A stretch of DNA of 64,000 nt from Candidatus Woesearchaeota archaeon (lineage in GTDB: Archaea; Nanobdellota; Nanobdellia; Woesearchaeales; JAFGPW01). The notes beneath the pieces are model-generated. The model made no database searches and had not been told where the DNA came from. It saw nothing but the letters and a program-made list of their open reading frames with translations. Of the stretch, positions 24,791 through 34,898 are shown piece after piece. The stretch covers positions 25,047 through 89,046 of the forward strand of contig JAFGPW010000006.1 of the NCBI GenBank assembly GCA_016935985.1. The letters run 5' to 3'. The position numbers were made by a program, and so were the translations under genes. How positions within the stretch are numbered: the first letter of the stretch is position 1; each line of letters begins with the position of its first letter.

Positions 24791-25771
24791 TCACGCGGCA
24801 GTAAGGTACTGAGAAGCGACCTCGTCGACCGGCGCTTCCTTCCGCGTGAGCGCCGAGGAGAGGTACGGCCCGAGCCTTCGCCTGAGGTCGCCTGCGATGC
24901 GCCTGATGTCCACCTGGTCCTTCGGGACGCCGTTCGCGATCATATAGGTCGCCGCCTGACCGATGTAATGGTTCATCGCGAGCTCTGCCATCGCGAGGTT
25001 CTCACGCCTCCCCTCCTCCGAATCGGCGTCGATCGCCTCCTGGAGCAGGTAGCGCGCGTGCGTGTAGGCGTTGTCGATCTCGACGAGCGGCATCCGCTCA
25101 GGGCTCGAGCCGTTCATCAGGACGCTCTTCGGCTGGGCGTTGTGGATGAGCTCGTGCTCGAGCACGAACCAGACCGCGAGCTCCTCGGCGCGCGCCTGCG
25201 ATATGCCGTAGCGGCCCCGCATGCCTGCGGCGACATCCTCCACATACCTCTGGAAATAGGACGAGTTGATGAGCAGGTTCTTCCGCGCCGCCGAAGGGAT
25301 CGTCGCCGCGACCGCCTCCCCTTCGACGTCGTCGGCGATGTAGACCTCGATGTCTGAAGGAAGGCCCTTGCCGTATGCCCTGCGGACATGGCGATCGAGC
25401 CTGGAGTGCCGGTCCTGGGCCTGGAGACTGCGGTAGGCGGCCTTGATCTCCGCGTTCTGGTAGACCTTGGAGAGGATGTCGCTCTTCTGCCCCTCAGGGA
25501 TGGCGGCGTTCCTGACCCGCTCCTCGAGGCCCTCGGGCTGCGGCATGCCGGGCTCGGGAACGTCCTGCGATTCCTGTATCACGGAATAGGTCCCTGTCTT
25601 CGGGTTGGGCTGCGCGACCGACATCCAGTACGCGAGGCCCGGATGGTATGATCCGAAGGGCCCAGGATACGGTGCGGTCGCGAAGTGGCGCCGCGGTGCG
25701 GCCTCACTGACGGCCGCCGCGGCGATGATGCGCGAAAGAGATCGCGCTGCGCATGAATCGGAGAGGCCCAT
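24791..25771 (-). CDS. Putative zinc metallopeptidase (HExxH) (326 aa)
   Basis: FVLEHELIHNAQPKS contains HELIH. Confidence 0.6.
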   Translation of the reverse strand: MGLSDSCAARSLSRIIAAAAVSEAAPRRHFATAPYPGPFGSYHPGLAYWMSVAQPNPKTGTYSVIQESQDVPEPGMPQPEGLEERVRNAAIPEGQKSDILSKVYQNAEIKAAYRSLQAQDRHSRLDRHVRRAYGKGLPSDIEVYIADDVEGEAVAATIPSAARKNLLINSSYFQRYVEDVAAGMRGRYGISQARAEELAVWFVLEHELIHNAQPKSVLMNGSSPERMPLVEIDNAYTHARYLLQEAIDADSEEGRRENLAMAELAMNHYIGQAATYMIANGVPKDQVDIRRIAGDLRRRLGPYLSSALTRKEAPVDEVASQYLTAA

Positions 25772-26709: not shown

Positions 26710-28551
26710 GTGATGGCAAAGAAGCAGACCATAAAGAAGGACGACGATCCGGGGATAGTGGTGGAGAGAGACGAGCTCGCGAAGAAGCTGCCGCCCGACG
26801 CCCAGAAGAAGCTCGACCAGATCAAGGGGATCGTCGACAGGTTCCAGAAGAAGGCCATCGACAAGTTCGACAAGTACGTCTCAGGGATAGCTCTCCTTCC
26901 GCCCGACAAGAAGGAAGGGAGCGGCGAGCCGGACGTCGAGAAGATCAACCTGATGGTGCTCATCGACGACCAGGACTCCCAGCGGCTGCCGAAGGAGGAC
27001 CTGAAGGAGAAGATAACCGCGATCATCAACGGCTATGCCGCAGAGGTCGACAAAAGGCTCAGCCCCCAGATGCTGCTCCTCTCCGAGCTCTGGACGGCCT
27101 GCTTCGACGCGAAATACGACCTTCTCGACACCATCGCCATGGGCGCGCCCATCTACGACACCGGCATGCTCGCGGCGATCAGGATCGCGGAGGTCCACAA
27201 GAACATGGTCCTGAAGAAGTTCGAGAAGTATATCGTCTCCTACGTGCTCTCAGGATCGCTCATCCGCGGCGAGGCGACGCCGGACTCCGACATCGACGTC
27301 TTCATCGTGATCGACGACACCGACGTCAAGAAGATGACCCGCGCGGAGCTCAAGGACAAGCTGCGCGCGATCATCATCGGCATGGGGATGGAGGCGGGCG
27401 AGGTCACCGGCATCAAGAACAAGATCAACATCCAGGTCTACATACTCACCGACTTCTGGGACAGCCTCCGCGAGGCGAACCCGGTGATATTCACGCTGCT
27501 GCGCGACGGCGTCCCGTTCTTCGACCGCGGCATCTTCACGCCGTGGAAGCAGCTGCTCAAGATGGGCCGCATCAAGCCGAGCCAGGAGGCGATCGAGATG
27601 TTCATGTCCTCCGGCGAGCAGATGCTGAAGCGGGTCGAGTACAAGATCCGCGAGATCGGGATGGAGGACATCTACTACGCGATCCTCACCCCGTCGCAGG
27701 CCGCGCTCATGCTCTGGGGGATGGCGCCGCCGGCGCCGAAGGAGACCGCGAAGCTGATGCGCGAGATCTTCGTCAAGAAGGAGAGGATGTTCGAGGAGGA
27801 GCACATCAGGATACTCGAGAAGACCATCCAGGTGAGGAAGGACCTCGAGCACGGCACCAGGAAGGACCTGTCAGGGAAGGAGGTCGACGACCTGCTCAAG
27901 GACGCGCAGAAGTTCCTCAAGCGGATCGAGACGCTCTTCTCCGAGATCGAGGTCAAGCGCGAGAAGGAGTCGGTGACGCACATCTACGAGACCGCGATGA
28001 CGATCGTGCGCGACATCATGCGCATCGAGGGCATCGAGCGGCGAAAGGACCGCGACATCCTCGTCCTCTTCAGGGAGGAGCTCATCGAGGAGGGGAAGGT
28101 CCCTGACCGCTACCTGCGCATCCTCACCGACATCGTCGGCGCGAAGAAGGACTTCGACGCCGGCAGGCTCAGCAAGGCGACGATCGAGAAGGTCAAGAAG
28201 ACGAGCCAGGAGTTCATCAAGTTCATGATAGAGTACATGCAGCGCAAGCGCGGCCGCGAGATCGAGCGGTGCAAGATACGGGTCAGGCACGGCGAGCGTT
28301 TCGGCGAGATCCTCCTCCTGGACAAGACCGCGTTCATCATCCACGACATCGAGCATGAGGACAAGGAGATATCCAAGGCGCCGATCAGGAAGGACGGCTC
28401 GCTCGGCATGCCGACGCAGTCGAGCCTCGAGGAGCTCGAGAAGCACCTCGCCACGATCGAGATCCCGGAGAAGGCCTTCATCAAGGAGCCGATATTCGAG
28501 AACCTCAGGGAGCTCTTCGGGAAAGACGTCGAGGTGCTCATCAACTACTAG
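26710..28551 (+). CDS. Multidomain nucleotidyltransferase (degenerate NTase + NTase + HEPN-like) (613 aa)
   Basis: GSLIRGEATPDSDIDVFIV NTase signature; upstream degenerate duplicate; RKDLEH (R-x4-H) in a helical HEPN-like segment. Confidence 0.8.
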   Translation: MMAKKQTIKKDDDPGIVVERDELAKKLPPDAQKKLDQIKGIVDRFQKKAIDKFDKYVSGIALLPPDKKEGSGEPDVEKINLMVLIDDQDSQRLPKEDLKEKITAIINGYAAEVDKRLSPQMLLLSELWTACFDAKYDLLDTIAMGAPIYDTGMLAAIRIAEVHKNMVLKKFEKYIVSYVLSGSLIRGEATPDSDIDVFIVIDDTDVKKMTRAELKDKLRAIIIGMGMEAGEVTGIKNKINIQVYILTDFWDSLREANPVIFTLLRDGVPFFDRGIFTPWKQLLKMGRIKPSQEAIEMFMSSGEQMLKRVEYKIREIGMEDIYYAILTPSQAALMLWGMAPPAPKETAKLMREIFVKKERMFEEEHIRILEKTIQVRKDLEHGTRKDLSGKEVDDLLKDAQKFLKRIETLFSEIEVKREKESVTHIYETAMTIVRDIMRIEGIERRKDRDILVLFREELIEEGKVPDRYLRILTDIVGAKKDFDAGRLSKATIEKVKKTSQEFIKFMIEYMQRKRGREIERCKIRVRHGERFGEILLLDKTAFIIHDIEHEDKEISKAPIRKDGSLGMPTQSSLEELEKHLATIEIPEKAFIKEPIFENLRELFGKDVEVLINY

Positions 28552-29216: not shown

Positions 29217-29750
29217 ATGGGCTGGAGCATGGAAGTAGAGAAGGGGACAAGCTTCATCATCAAGTACAAGGGCATCTTCGACATGGACCGCCTCTACATC
29301 GTGTGCCGGCAGTGGTTCGAGGACAAGCTCATGGAGTTCCATGAGGAGACCTACAAGTACAAGGTCCCCTCCCCGCTCGGCTCGGAATACGAGCTCGCGT
29401 GGAAGGCGTGGCGCAAGCTCGACGAGTACGCCAAGATGTGGATCAACGTCGCCTGGAAGCTCTGGGAAGCGACCGAGGTCGAGGTCATGGTCGACGGCAA
29501 GAGGAAGAAGATGGAGAAGGCGCGCGTGCGGATCGTCATCGACTGGAAGATCGACCTCGACTACCAGAACCGGTTCGACAGCCCGTTCGGAAGGCATATA
29601 AACAGGTTCTACCTCAAGTTCGTGTACAAGAAGAAGCTCGACAACCTGGTGACCGACATGGCGCATTACAAGGCCCTCGAGCTCCAGACGCTCATCAAGG
29701 AGGAGCTCGCGATGGCGACGAGAGGCAACGAGTTCGCGAGCGTGTGGTGA
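29217..29750 (+). CDS. Conserved-looking hypothetical protein, member 1 of a tandem paralogous pair (177 aa)
   Basis: ORF; similarity by eye to 29757..30257. Confidence 0.7.
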   Translation: MGWSMEVEKGTSFIIKYKGIFDMDRLYIVCRQWFEDKLMEFHEETYKYKVPSPLGSEYELAWKAWRKLDEYAKMWINVAWKLWEATEVEVMVDGKRKKMEKARVRIVIDWKIDLDYQNRFDSPFGRHINRFYLKFVYKKKLDNLVTDMAHYKALELQTLIKEELAMATRGNEFASVW

Positions 29751-29756
29751 GGTTGC

Positions 29757-30257
29757 ATGGTTGAACGCAAGATACTCATCGACCAGGCGAGACTCCAGTA
29801 CGAGGGCCTGCTCGACGTGAACGAGTTCTACAAGATGACAGACTTCTGGTTCCGCGAGAAGGGCTACGACAAGTGGGAGTGGAAGAACTACGAGCACGTC
29901 TACAAGTCGGGAAAGCAGGTCGAGCTCGAGATAACCCCCTGGAAGAAGGTGACCGACTACCTCAAGATCGTGATGCGCGTGCAGTTCCTGATGAAGAACA
30001 TCAAGGATGTGGTGGTGACGAAGGACGGCGTCAAGGTCAAGCTCCAGCAGGGAAGCGTCCTCGCCGTGTTCACGACGTACATGGAGTCCGACTACGAGCA
30101 CCGCTGGGAGGCGCAGCCGATATTCTACTTCCTGCACCAGCTCTTCGACCACTACGTCTTCAAGATCAACACCGAGCGCTACGAGGCGCAGGCGGTGAAG
30201 GAGACGAACGAGATCCGCGACCTGATGAAGAGCTACCTCAACCTGTTCAGGTTCTGA
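29757..30257 (+). CDS. Hypothetical protein, member 2 of the tandem pair (166 aa)
   Basis: ORF; YEGLLDVNEFYKMTDFWF vs YKGIFDMDRLYIVCRQWF and similar downstream pattern. Confidence 0.7.
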   Translation: MVERKILIDQARLQYEGLLDVNEFYKMTDFWFREKGYDKWEWKNYEHVYKSGKQVELEITPWKKVTDYLKIVMRVQFLMKNIKDVVVTKDGVKVKLQQGSVLAVFTTYMESDYEHRWEAQPIFYFLHQLFDHYVFKINTERYEAQAVKETNEIRDLMKSYLNLFRF

Positions 30258-30302
30258 AAGCCGCGCAAACCTTTAATACGACCCCTTTCTTCCCCCGACC
30301 GC

Positions 30303-31805
30303 ATGGTCCACGAGACGATCATCAGGGTGCTCATCGCGTTCGGGATACTCATCGTCGGGTTCGCGGCGTCGCGCATCGGCGAGGGGATGATCACGCGGCA
30401 GTACCGCAAGCGCCACGGCGTGCGGCTGCGGAAGGTCGCGCCTGCCAGGCTCTTCGCCTTCATCGTGAACGTCATCTCCCTCATCCTCGCGCTGTCGGCG
30501 CTGAACGTCACCGTCGGCGAGGATACGCTGGGCCGTGCGCTCGAGCTCCTGCCGACAGCCATCTCTGCCGTTCTCCTGCTCGTCCTCGTGATCGTCCTCG
30601 TCGGCTTCATCATGCACGCGGTGCGCCTCTTCGTCGAGAACTCGGGGCTGCTGCGGCTGATCGAGGAGTACGACCGGACAGCCCTCTACGACCTCGGCCT
30701 CATCGCCATCAGGATCATCCTCTATGCGCTCCTCGGCATCGTCGCGCTCAGCGTCGCGGGCGTCGAGACAGGATACGTGACGCGCATCATCTCCTTCATA
30801 GCGTATCCGATCCTCATCTTCCTGCTCGTCGCGCTCCTCGTCGCCTGCCAGGACGCGCTTCGGAACCTCGCGGCCGGCTACTACTTCAGGCTGCATTCCC
30901 TCTTCCGGGAGGGGGAGCTCGTGAAGGTGGACGGCTCCCATCTCCAGATCAGGAAGAGCCATCACCTGGGAATCGAGCTCGAGGCGACCGAGCGGAAGAA
31001 CCAGCGCGACCGCGAATTCCTGCCCTACGGCCGGATCCTGCGCGACGGCGCCGCCTACCGGTCGGTCCATGTCGAGCTCGACTCGCTCGAGAAGATCAAG
31101 GCGCAGTTCATCGCCCAGCACCCGAGCCACTGCGGCCCGGCGTCGGCAGCCATGATCCTGCGCATATTCGGGTTCACGGTATCGCAGGAGGAGATCGGCA
31201 GGAGGGCGGGGACGATCGTCCCCGGCAGGCGCGGGATCCCCGGCGGCACGACCCCGGCCCGGCTCATCAGTGTCGTCGACGAGCTCACCGCAGGCGAGGT
31301 GGCGGGGGTCTGGATCGACGCCGACCGGATCGTCAACCTCCGCGATGAGGCGAAACGCTGGCTGAAGGACGACGCGCTGCTCATCGTGGACTACAAGAAG
31401 TCGGCGCTCTTCCCGAAGGCGTTGAAGGCCCATTATTCCGTCTGCCTCGCGGTCGAGGGAGACGAGCTGCTCATCCTCGACCCGTCGCAGAAGGCCGGCG
31501 GCGTCTTCTACGCCGACTACCGGCGCGTGCAGGCGGGCATGGACACCTATTCTGAGCTCATCGGTGGCAGGCGCGGCTATATCGTCCTCGCGCTCCGCGG
31601 CTCTGCCGCGCACAAGCGCATCAGGGACGGAAAGGTCCACTACGACCAGTATGTGCTGGGCAGGGGCATCTCGAGAAGGCTCGTCCGGCTCTACGACCTC
31701 TCGCAGGTGAAGGACGTGCTGCCGGCGAGGCTTCAGTCATATCTCGAGCAGGTCGACGGCAGGCCGAAGGTGGCGCGGCTGTGGCGGCCGGGGCAGCGGC
31801 GATGA
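30303..31805 (+). CDS. Fusion of MscS-like channel (N-term) and C39-like cysteine peptidase (C-term) (500 aa)
   Basis: TM helices then DALRNLAAGYYFRLHSLFREGELVKVDG...FLPYGRI (MscS-like), then HCGPASAAMILRIFGFTVSQEEIG...HYSVCLAVEGDELLILDPS (C39-like Cys and His boxes). Confidence 0.8.
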   Translation: MVHETIIRVLIAFGILIVGFAASRIGEGMITRQYRKRHGVRLRKVAPARLFAFIVNVISLILALSALNVTVGEDTLGRALELLPTAISAVLLLVLVIVLVGFIMHAVRLFVENSGLLRLIEEYDRTALYDLGLIAIRIILYALLGIVALSVAGVETGYVTRIISFIAYPILIFLLVALLVACQDALRNLAAGYYFRLHSLFREGELVKVDGSHLQIRKSHHLGIELEATERKNQRDREFLPYGRILRDGAAYRSVHVELDSLEKIKAQFIAQHPSHCGPASAAMILRIFGFTVSQEEIGRRAGTIVPGRRGIPGGTTPARLISVVDELTAGEVAGVWIDADRIVNLRDEAKRWLKDDALLIVDYKKSALFPKALKAHYSVCLAVEGDELLILDPSQKAGGVFYADYRRVQAGMDTYSELIGGRRGYIVLALRGSAAHKRIRDGKVHYDQYVLGRGISRRLVRLYDLSQVKDVLPARLQSYLEQVDGRPKVARLWRPGQRR

Positions 31806-32159: not shown

Positions 32160-33050
32160 ATGGCTGTCATCAACCGCATCATCGACCATGAGCATCACCA
32201 GCTCCTCTTCGCCACCTACCCCCACAAGGTGTCCTGGATCATCAACGTGATAGCGCCACAGGGCTATTTCGACAGCATCGGCATCAAGGTCCTGCATCCG
32301 ATCGTCGGATGGTTCGAGGAGATAGGCTATGACTGGACCTGCTTCAAGGCAGGCGGCTACTACTCAGATGAAACCATCAGCATATTCGATGAGTCGTCCG
32401 GGACGAGCGAGCGGCACGAGCTCTTCCATGCCATGGTGGACGACATGCTCGGATCCACGCAGTACACTGCTCTCGAGGAGGGGATGGCGCATGCCTGGCA
32501 GTTCCTCCACAGCGATCCAGACAGGGAAGCCGGCCCCTTGTGGGAACGCTCGCTCGAGATAGCGCAGTACCTGCGCACAGCCCTCGCCAGTGCCGCCGAT
32601 ACGTATGATCCCGGCTTCCAGATTCCCCTCGACTGGACCGAGCTCCTCCTCGAGGCGGACCAGTACGCCTATTTCCCCCTCTGCTACGCGGTCTCGCGAG
32701 AGTACCGCAACGAGTCTGAGCTCAAGGACATATTCATCTCCTCGCTCGGCAGGGCCGCCAGGTACAACAATCTGAGGAAAGGGATAGATCTCCTCGTCAT
32801 GAAGACGGACATCCCGCAATCGATGAAGCGGTTCTACCGCAAGCTTCAGTTCACCGGCGCGTATGACCTCTCGCCCACGAACCAGCTGCAGGAATACGAG
32901 ACGATCGACGGCGCGGTCTACCAGATAGGCTTCCCGAGCGACGGGCAGAAGCGGTTCAAGAAGATCACCGAGATGCTCTACAGCGGCGAGGCGATCGCGA
33001 GCATCGGTGAGACCGTATCACCGCCGGCATTAGAGTTGCTCGATAGGTGA
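32160..33050 (+). CDS. Putative zincin-like metallopeptidase (296 aa)
   Basis: ERHELFHAMVDDML (HExxH) followed by ALEEGMAHAW candidate third-ligand Glu. Confidence 0.6.
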   Translation: MAVINRIIDHEHHQLLFATYPHKVSWIINVIAPQGYFDSIGIKVLHPIVGWFEEIGYDWTCFKAGGYYSDETISIFDESSGTSERHELFHAMVDDMLGSTQYTALEEGMAHAWQFLHSDPDREAGPLWERSLEIAQYLRTALASAADTYDPGFQIPLDWTELLLEADQYAYFPLCYAVSREYRNESELKDIFISSLGRAARYNNLRKGIDLLVMKTDIPQSMKRFYRKLQFTGAYDLSPTNQLQEYETIDGAVYQIGFPSDGQKRFKKITEMLYSGEAIASIGETVSPPALELLDR

Positions 33051-33320: not shown

Positions 33321-34898
33321 TCATCTCTTCCTGCGGATCTGCCCCTTGAGTATCCCGATCGCCCGCTGAACCTGCGGGTCGGTCTTCCTGTAGACAGAGA
33401 AGAGGCGTTCGCCGCGCATCAGCCTGAGCATCGTCTCGTACATGCGATCGGCATCGGCTTTGGGGATGCCTGTCGAGGTGTCCGGACAGGCGATGCCCGA
33501 GATCTCGCGGACTGGATCGAGGAGCGTCGTGTCATCAAGCGCCTGACTGAACGCTATCGGGTGGAAGAGGGAATAGATCGCCGTGAAATAATCTTTATGG
33601 CCGATATAGCCGGGAGCGATCGAGAGCCGTTCGTCAGGCATGATGCCGTTCCGGTCAGGGCCGATCGTGTCGCGCTTCACGTAATCGAACGCACCCATGA
33701 AATATTCCGTTATCGGGTACCGCAGCTCGCGCTGGATATGGTTCGGGGAATGGGGGAACATGACCTCGCCCACCGGGTACCTGAGGATGGTCCTCTTCCC
33801 CTTGCCTGCCGATGCTTGCGGCCTGCCATCAGCCAGGCAGACTCCCTCCATCACGATCCCTTTCCCATAGCTCGGCATGCCGACCGTGGTGATCGGATAC
33901 CCCTGGTCGTTGAGAACGCCGATGAATATCTCCGCTGCGCTCGCGGTCTCGGTGTCCATGAGGATGACGGTCGGAAGAGTCTTCGCCTTGATCGACCGGG
34001 GGATGTATAGGGACTCAAGGAGGCTGTCGAGCGAGCCGTCCGAGTCCCAGGTGACGATGTCGAGCACCTTCTGGTCTGTCTGGATGAGGGCGCTCAGCTG
34101 CCCCATCACATTCCCGAGGAAGCCGCCGCGGTTGCTGCGCAGGTCGATGATCCTCCCCTTCGCGCCGGCAGAGTCTGCCTCGGCGAGCAGCGACACCAGG
34201 GACGCTGTCGAGTCGTCCATGAAGGACTCGATACGGATATAGGTGATGCCCTCCTGCTGCTCTGCCCAGACCTCGGGCCGGTAGACATCGGCCTTGGGGA
34301 TGACCATCGCCTCCTTCTCCCGGGTGCCGGGCCTGATGTACTCGATGAGGAGCGAGTCGGTCCTCTCCTTCCTCGGATCGCTGACGAGCCTCCCCTTCTC
34401 GATGATGGTTCCCCCCCTGCTCTCCTGGAGGGTGTAGATGACGCTGCCGAGCGGGATGCGGTCGGCGTACTTCTCGGCGCGCCAGGTGATGACGAAGAGC
34501 GAGTCCTGGGTCGGCTGGCCCTTGAATCCCGGAGTCCAGAGGTCGCTCTTCCCAGAGGTCATCATATAGAGGTAGGGGTGCTTGCACGAGTCGATGAACG
34601 CCTCGATCGTCATGGTGGTGAAGACGTCGTAGATGTTGAGGGAACGGGTGCGGCTCGTCTGCTCCCAGTCAGTGTGGTGGTACCGCTTGATGACCTTGAT
34701 CAGGCTCCTGAGATCGGTCGGCAGGAAGCGTCCCTCCTCCTTCCGGTCCGATGCCGTCCTGTGTTCAGGCTGCCTCGCGTTGATCGCGCATGAGCCGAAC
34801 GAGAGCGAGAGGAGCAGCAGGAACATCCCTACCCTGTCCCGAACGCGGTCCGCCAATCCCATCATGCTTGTCGCCCTGGGCCTTGATGTCCCTATCAT
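33321..34898 (-). CDS. S41-family (tail-specific/CtpA-like) peptidase (525 aa)
   Basis: GRIIDLRSNRGGFLGN, METASAAEIFIGVL (Ser box), TVGMPSYGKGIV (Lys box). Confidence 0.8.
   Translation of the reverse strand: MIGTSRPRATSMMGLADRVRDRVGMFLLLLSLSFGSCAINARQPEHRTASDRKEEGRFLPTDLRSLIKVIKRYHHTDWEQTSRTRSLNIYDVFTTMTIEAFIDSCKHPYLYMMTSGKSDLWTPGFKGQPTQDSLFVITWRAEKYADRIPLGSVIYTLQESRGGTIIEKGRLVSDPRKERTDSLLIEYIRPGTREKEAMVIPKADVYRPEVWAEQQEGITYIRIESFMDDSTASLVSLLAEADSAGAKGRIIDLRSNRGGFLGNVMGQLSALIQTDQKVLDIVTWDSDGSLDSLLESLYIPRSIKAKTLPTVILMDTETASAAEIFIGVLNDQGYPITTVGMPSYGKGIVMEGVCLADGRPQASAGKGKRTILRYPVGEVMFPHSPNHIQRELRYPITEYFMGAFDYVKRDTIGPDRNGIMPDERLSIAPGYIGHKDYFTAIYSLFHPIAFSQALDDTTLLDPVREISGIACPDTSTGIPKADADRMYETMLRLMRGERLFSVYRKTDPQVQRAIGILKGQIRRKR

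Follow-up and report, generated by a model that had tools for sequence, protein, structure and literature searches.

The window analysed here, a stretch of 64,000 nucleotides from a Candidatus Woesearchaeota archaeon, encodes a protein of 500 amino acids in which a membrane region homologous to the channel MscS is joined to what is apparently a papain-like thiol enzyme with an intact catalytic set (Table 1). Full-length homologues (24–45% identity) occur in three groups of DPANN archaea, and the fusion is conserved far more widely than a single sequence could reveal. An earlier, sequence-only reading of this DNA had described the protein as an MscS-like channel fused to a C39-like cysteine peptidase. 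The reading frame is indeed open for 500 residues, the codons picked out for the catalytic Cys and His lie where that reading had put them and the Asp corresponds to Asp393; the joining of an MscS-like region to a papain-like cysteine enzyme is borne out by profile comparison and by residue conservation, both described below. The most economical interpretation is possibly that of a membrane-bound thiol enzyme which acts on the products of RimK-type ligases in an osmotic context.

Table 1. Features of the fusion gene and its product, in positions of the window
Feature	Position	Strand	Basis
MscS–papain-like fusion protein ORF (500 aa)	30303..31805	+	uninterrupted reading frame; full-length homologues
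TTTAATA, TATA-box-like, 25–31 nt 5' of the ATG; probable leaderless promoter of the fusion ORF	30272..30278	+	sequence; inference
Two extra N-terminal TM helices (residues 2–38, 46–67)	30306..30503	+	AlphaFold model, hydropathy
MscS-like TM block (helices 78–114, 126–151, 157–197)	30534..30893	+	AlphaFold model, profile comparisons
MscS beta domain (residues 205–247)	30915..31043	+	PF00924, AlphaFold model, PDB profile match
Papain-like domain (residues 257–434), predicted cytoplasmic	31071..31604	+	AlphaFold model, profile, structural matches
Gln272, oxyanion-hole residue (= Alr0975 Gln64)	31116..31118	+	39/39, mapping to Alr0975
Cys277, predicted catalytic nucleophile (= Alr0975 Cys70)	31131..31133	+	39/39, mapping to Alr0975
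His377, predicted catalytic (= Alr0975 His183)	31431..31433	+	39/39, mapping to Alr0975
Asp393, predicted catalytic (= Alr0975 Asp201)	31479..31481	+	39/39, mapping to Alr0975
Arg424, in M-x-T...R-G-Y motif (= Alr0975 Arg232), invariant	31572..31574	+	alignment, mapping to Alr0975
C-terminal tail, conserved R-x-W-x-P end	31605..31802	+	alignment; low-confidence model region

Distribution and age of the fusion

Of the 352 genomes in the order to which the window belongs, 25 have full-length homologues of ~500 residues, one being a fragment. The nanohaloarchaeal phylum (that of M3_22), whose members have very small genomes, carries the fusion in 25 of its 28 genomes, nearly always as an uninterrupted ORF of 500–567 residues and in one case split over two contigs; in a third DPANN phylum it is present in 8 of 34 genomes. 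A pattern scan of ~85,000 species genomes returned 39 loci, labelled as Woesearchaeota/Nanoarchaeota, Nanohalarchaeota, Aenigmatarchaeota, one ‘archaeon’ and one ‘uncultured euryarchaeote’, the last of which (L079) has the nanohaloarchaeal gene order around the fusion. Within these searches the fusion was met in DPANN archaea only; non-DPANN archaea and bacteria were covered by the pattern-based scan alone, and as all three of its patterns lie within the enzyme half, divergent relatives could escape it. A viral origin was rejected, as a scan of viral contigs gave no relative. Among 279 genomes of the window's phylum there was no stand-alone copy of the complete enzyme domain: all 240 positions are found together only within long fused ORFs, and stand-alone archaeal C39-like proteins of ~160 residues match the first half of the enzyme profile only. 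The open-access papers searched held none that links MscS to C39 or to phytochelatin synthase in archaeal proteins, and none that describes this fusion.

The sequence-only reading had warned of a possible assembly error at the junction and had suggested a search for the same architecture in other archaea. It is present in dozens of independent assemblies, among them the complete chromosome CP046106.1 (L076), which carries it from end to end, and a chance pattern can be dismissed. Gln272 follows the beta-domain proline (residue 241) at a distance of exactly 31 residues in each of the 39 aligned members, and a false join is thereby excluded. Nothing was found in favour of the idea that an MscS gene was wrongly joined to a peptidase gene in assembly or annotation; it is refuted by 39 independent records, that complete chromosome included, which all have an identical junction with the same spacing, and its probability is negligible. 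The spacing between His377 and Asp393 (16 residues) is equally fixed in 39 of 39. Since the connector length is constant and pairwise distances in the channel half correlate with those in the enzyme half (rho 0.73, 39 aligned members), the connection would seem to be rigid and old, and a single ancestral fusion is likely. The tree sets the window protein beside L044 and L059 and unites the nanohaloarchaea that carry the operon, the support for this group being moderate (83/29).

An MscS-type core and an apparent papain-like enzyme

The hydropathy profile shows five hydrophobic segments, in agreement with the AlphaFold model, which has five long helices and represents the full-length monomer at moderate confidence (mean pLDDT 75, pTM 0.53); the fold of the transmembrane part is taken from sequence profiles together with this model. 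The part homologous to MscS comprises the last three helices and the beta domain. Because the loop between helices 1 and 2 is basic and the number of helices is odd, both this loop and the C-terminus are predicted to be cytoplasmic. The window protein alone matched MscS in the PDB only marginally; a profile of residues 1–257 matched E. coli MscS with an E-value of 5e-15, alongside other MscS structures that include short entries of 171–174 residues. Comparison of the channel half with stand-alone DPANN MscS-like proteins gave an hhalign probability of 99.6%, and PF00924, the MscS beta domain, was detected in 20 of 24 homologues (best 5e-12), with P-Y-G-R-I in the fusion where I-P-N is usual. 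The alpha/beta cage domain of MscS had no Pfam match in any of the 24 members; in the model, the enzyme domain begins ~10 residues past the beta domain and occupies the place of the cage. Assembly into heptamers would be expected from the homology to MscS. The pore-lining helix contains 20% Gly/Ala/Ser, against 53% in E. coli MscS, and conduction and MscS-type gating are therefore doubtful; a similarly low value (17%) was found in stand-alone DPANN MscS-like proteins. Minimal MscS-like proteins of ~190 residues, consisting of the transmembrane block and beta domain only (L006–L022), are common in the window's order, and in these, too, Gly/Ala is scarce in the pore helix.

The enzyme half is the better conserved of the two (mean column identity 56% vs 39%). 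Every one of the 39 aligned members has Gln272, Cys277, His377 and Asp393, and in the tail Arg492 is kept in 36 and Trp494 in 38. Lack of conservation in the peptidase residues would have refuted the sequence-only reading, and this check left it standing. When the window protein was compared with Pfam on its own, all three relevant families stayed below their cut-offs: PF13529 (C39_2; 21.5 bits vs 24), PF03412 (C39; 19.9 vs 22) and PF05023 (14.9 vs 24.9). Across the homologues, C39_2 was found in 24 of 24 (best 9e-11) and Phytochelatin (PF05023) in 20 of 24 (best 2e-7), with Pfam scoring C39_2 higher; transglutaminase had no Pfam match among these 24. Against the PDB, a profile of residues 258–500 matched the phytochelatin synthase Alr0975 with an E-value of 1.4e-9 over profile positions 9–168 (~160 positions) and PeiR marginally (E 0.07), with no C39 transporter peptidase domain at E ≤ 0.1. 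Foldseek ranked Alr0975 first, PeiR second and ComA third, and VIA-align gave Z-scores of 18.3 for PeiR (149 residues aligned, 2.3 Å), 17.6 for Alr0975 (160, 2.4 Å), 15.7 for PCAT1 (136, 2.2 Å) and 15.5 for ComA (136, 2.3 Å).

As profile and structure favour Alr0975 over the C39 transporter peptidases whilst Pfam favours C39_2, the enzyme domain is placed between families C39 and C83 of the papain superfamily; judged by sequence, it is closer to cyanobacterial phytochelatin synthase than to the peptidases of C39 ABC transporters. The label ‘C39-like’ thus holds for the C39/papain fold, but a plain C39 assignment was rejected as too narrow. Phytochelatin synthase proper was also rejected: the second-substrate site of NsPCS, formed by Arg173, Lys206 and Tyr207 (PMC3855540), is not kept, the counterparts in the fusion being Lys366 (invariant), Ala398 and Gly399. 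Loss of this site with retention of the catalytic residues argues for a hydrolase, or for a transferase acting on other substrates, and phytochelatin synthesis by the fusion seems unlikely.

Gene neighbourhoods and the link to RimK

In the window itself the neighbours of the fusion are not shared with its relatives and form no conserved operon. Directly 5' of it lie two adjacent ORFs of similar look (29217–29750 and 29757–30257, plus strand; 177 and 166 residues), which have no Pfam match and are possibly tandem paralogues. The products of 24791–25771 (minus strand) and 32160–33050 (plus strand) also have no Pfam match, carry the HExxH motifs HELIH and HELFH and are candidate metallopeptidases; together with the fusion and an S41 peptidase (33321–34898, minus strand), they make up a peptidase-rich stretch. 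The 613-residue product of 26710–28551 (plus strand) contains a nucleotidyltransferase domain and matches HEPN weakly.

A conserved order is found in the nanohaloarchaea. In every fusion-bearing genome of this group with readable surroundings, the fusion heads an operon in which it is followed by a degenerate ATP-grasp protein of ~270 residues and then by a RimK-family ligase, the ORF ends often overlapping by 1–20 nt. The operon RimK scores above the TIGR00768 cut-off, retains the ATP-grasp motifs that its degenerate neighbour lacks and is the sole RimK-family gene in six of the six nanohaloarchaeal genomes searched. The motif-less RimK-like gene (L072:9448–10299 and L076:9502–10317, with counterparts in L100–L117) is accompanied by an intact RimK at every nanohaloarchaeal locus that was read, and its product is a probable pseudoenzyme partner. 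The fusion is usually preceded by S6e and eIF2-gamma, and genes for the TrkA/TrkH potassium transporter lie divergently beside the operon. Four loci (L105, L107, L110 and L118) have a stand-alone MscS-like gene of ~290 residues between TrkH and S6e; in these nanohaloarchaea the combination of TrkAH, stand-alone MscS-like gene and fusion looks like an osmoregulation locus.

The linkage to RimK is based on this clade and on one woesearchaeon (L068/G285), in which RimK and a RimB-like retropepsin are convergent to the fusion. A locus labelled Aenigmatarchaeota (L070) retains both ATP-grasp genes but lacks the eIF2-gamma surroundings. The genome of the window has a RimB–RimK pair on another contig, unlinked to the fusion, and in other woesearchaea the neighbours are unrelated. 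In one woesearchaeal family (f10), large secreted proteins lie downstream instead; L052, L053 and L055–L058 have the fusion followed, in the same direction, by a CARDB-type protein of ~900 residues and/or a probable secreted membrane protein of ~480 residues. Within the window's order, RimK is present in 23 of 25 genomes with the fusion and in 216 of 327 others, a mild association (Fisher p 0.004, uncorrected for phylogeny).

Possible functions and likeness to known systems

The explanation that we tentatively prefer, at somewhat less than an even chance, is that of a membrane-anchored thiol hydrolase, possibly regulated by tension or osmolarity, whose substrates would be RimK-made peptides or tags. 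Five helices would bear an MscS-type core of transmembrane block and beta domain, probably heptameric, and a papain-like enzyme would take the place of the cytoplasmic cage by way of the fixed-length connector. An amide bond would be hydrolysed (or transferred) through Cys277, His377 and Asp393, with Gln272 in the oxyanion hole, and RimK-family ATP-grasp ligases would make its likely substrate, a peptide or protein tag. The core would probably sense membrane stretch or osmotic state and regulate the enzyme accordingly; this coupling and the identity of the substrate are speculative. The protein may be the ‘tension-gated protease’ of the sequence-only reading. In bacteria, RimK synthesizes poly-alpha-glutamate and adds glutamate residues to ribosomal protein S6, and RimB takes these residues off (PMC12239564). 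In salt-in archaea, potassium is proposed to enter by Trk and to leave through MscS (PMC4230888), and an osmotic role is suggested by the Trk and, in some cases, MscS genes that adjoin the nanohaloarchaeal locus. Against this explanation, the bulky pore helix casts doubt on conduction and gating, and the RimK operon is confined to one clade, with RimB–RimK unlinked to the fusion in the genome of the window. Its strongest form is rather improbable: a mechanosensitive enzyme whose papain-like thiol hydrolases, arranged as a ring beneath the MscS core, are switched by membrane tension and remove or recycle peptides or tags, glutamyl or otherwise made by ATP-grasp enzymes. If true, osmotic stimuli in DPANN archaea would be converted directly to changes of a post-translational or metabolic kind.

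The same pore helix, the missing cage and the lower conservation of the channel half would all fit an MscS part that serves as a non-conducting, oligomeric membrane anchor for a constitutive peptidase free of tension control. This is a substantial possibility, though not one to be expected on balance: the beta domain and MscS transmembrane block are retained, the connector length is fixed and the nanohaloarchaeal locus adjoins Trk and sometimes MscS genes. The fixed connector would equally suit a ligand sensor in which a metabolite or peptide, bound by the papain-like domain, controls the gating of the channel, with catalysis secondary. MscS relatives with C-terminal ligand-binding domains, such as bCNG, are known (Caldwell 2010, as cited in PMC4560390); the fusion differs from degenerate sensor domains in its invariant catalytic set, and such a sensor is unlikely here. 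The ‘peptide-release device’ of the sequence-only reading would be a C39-type leader peptidase, trimming Gly-Gly leader peptides that then exit through the channel. Its basis is the fold common to the ComA and PCAT1 peptidase domains and the Pfam C39_2 match in every member, but the profile points to phytochelatin synthase, the bulky pore helix speaks against peptide passage and neither a precursor-peptide gene nor an ABC exporter was found among the neighbours inspected; the device finds no support there, and the leader-peptidase explanation is very improbable.

On the preferred explanation, the fusion would represent a channel-enzyme of prokaryotes, with the cage of MscS exchanged for a catalytic domain, and would offer a testable entry to the osmotic responses of host-dependent halophilic DPANN cells. 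Its transmembrane block and beta domain are homologous to those of the MscS superfamily, including the heptameric short PDB entries (9sdg and 9bgu groups); unlike these, it has two additional N-terminal helices, a bulky pore helix and a C-terminal papain-like enzyme in place of the alpha/beta cage. By sequence, the closest solved relative of the enzyme domain is the C83 phytochelatin synthase Alr0975/NsPCS, whose Q64, C70, H183, D201 and Arg232 have invariant counterparts and whose M-x-T...R-G motif is common to both, but the fusion is membrane-bound and its second-substrate residues are replaced. It resembles the C39 peptidase domains of ComA and PCAT1, and stand-alone C39-like proteins, in fold and catalytic residues; in contrast to the transporter peptidases, it had no ABC transporter among the neighbours inspected, and their domains gave no sequence match. 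The top structural match, the papain-like pseudomurein endoisopeptidase PeiR, is by contrast a secreted or phage-type cell-wall enzyme. bCNG channels likewise add a C-terminal cytoplasmic domain to an MscS core, in their case one that binds cyclic nucleotides rather than an apparent enzyme. An MscS-type membrane core linked to ATP-grasp peptide ligation has a parallel in the bacterial Rlo/Rim systems (RimK ATP-grasp, RimB/RloA retropepsin and RloB transglutaminase-7TM), where a similar pairing is built from other parts: the rlo operon, which is linked to hypoosmotic tolerance, combines a membrane-anchored inactive transglutaminase domain with an ATP-grasp protein and retropepsins (PMC12239564). 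Both place a papain-superfamily domain on transmembrane helices, with an ATP-grasp partner and in an osmotic setting, but the RloB transglutaminase is inactive and periplasmic, whereas the domain of the fusion has intact catalytic residues, is predicted to be cytoplasmic and is borne by an MscS-like membrane part.
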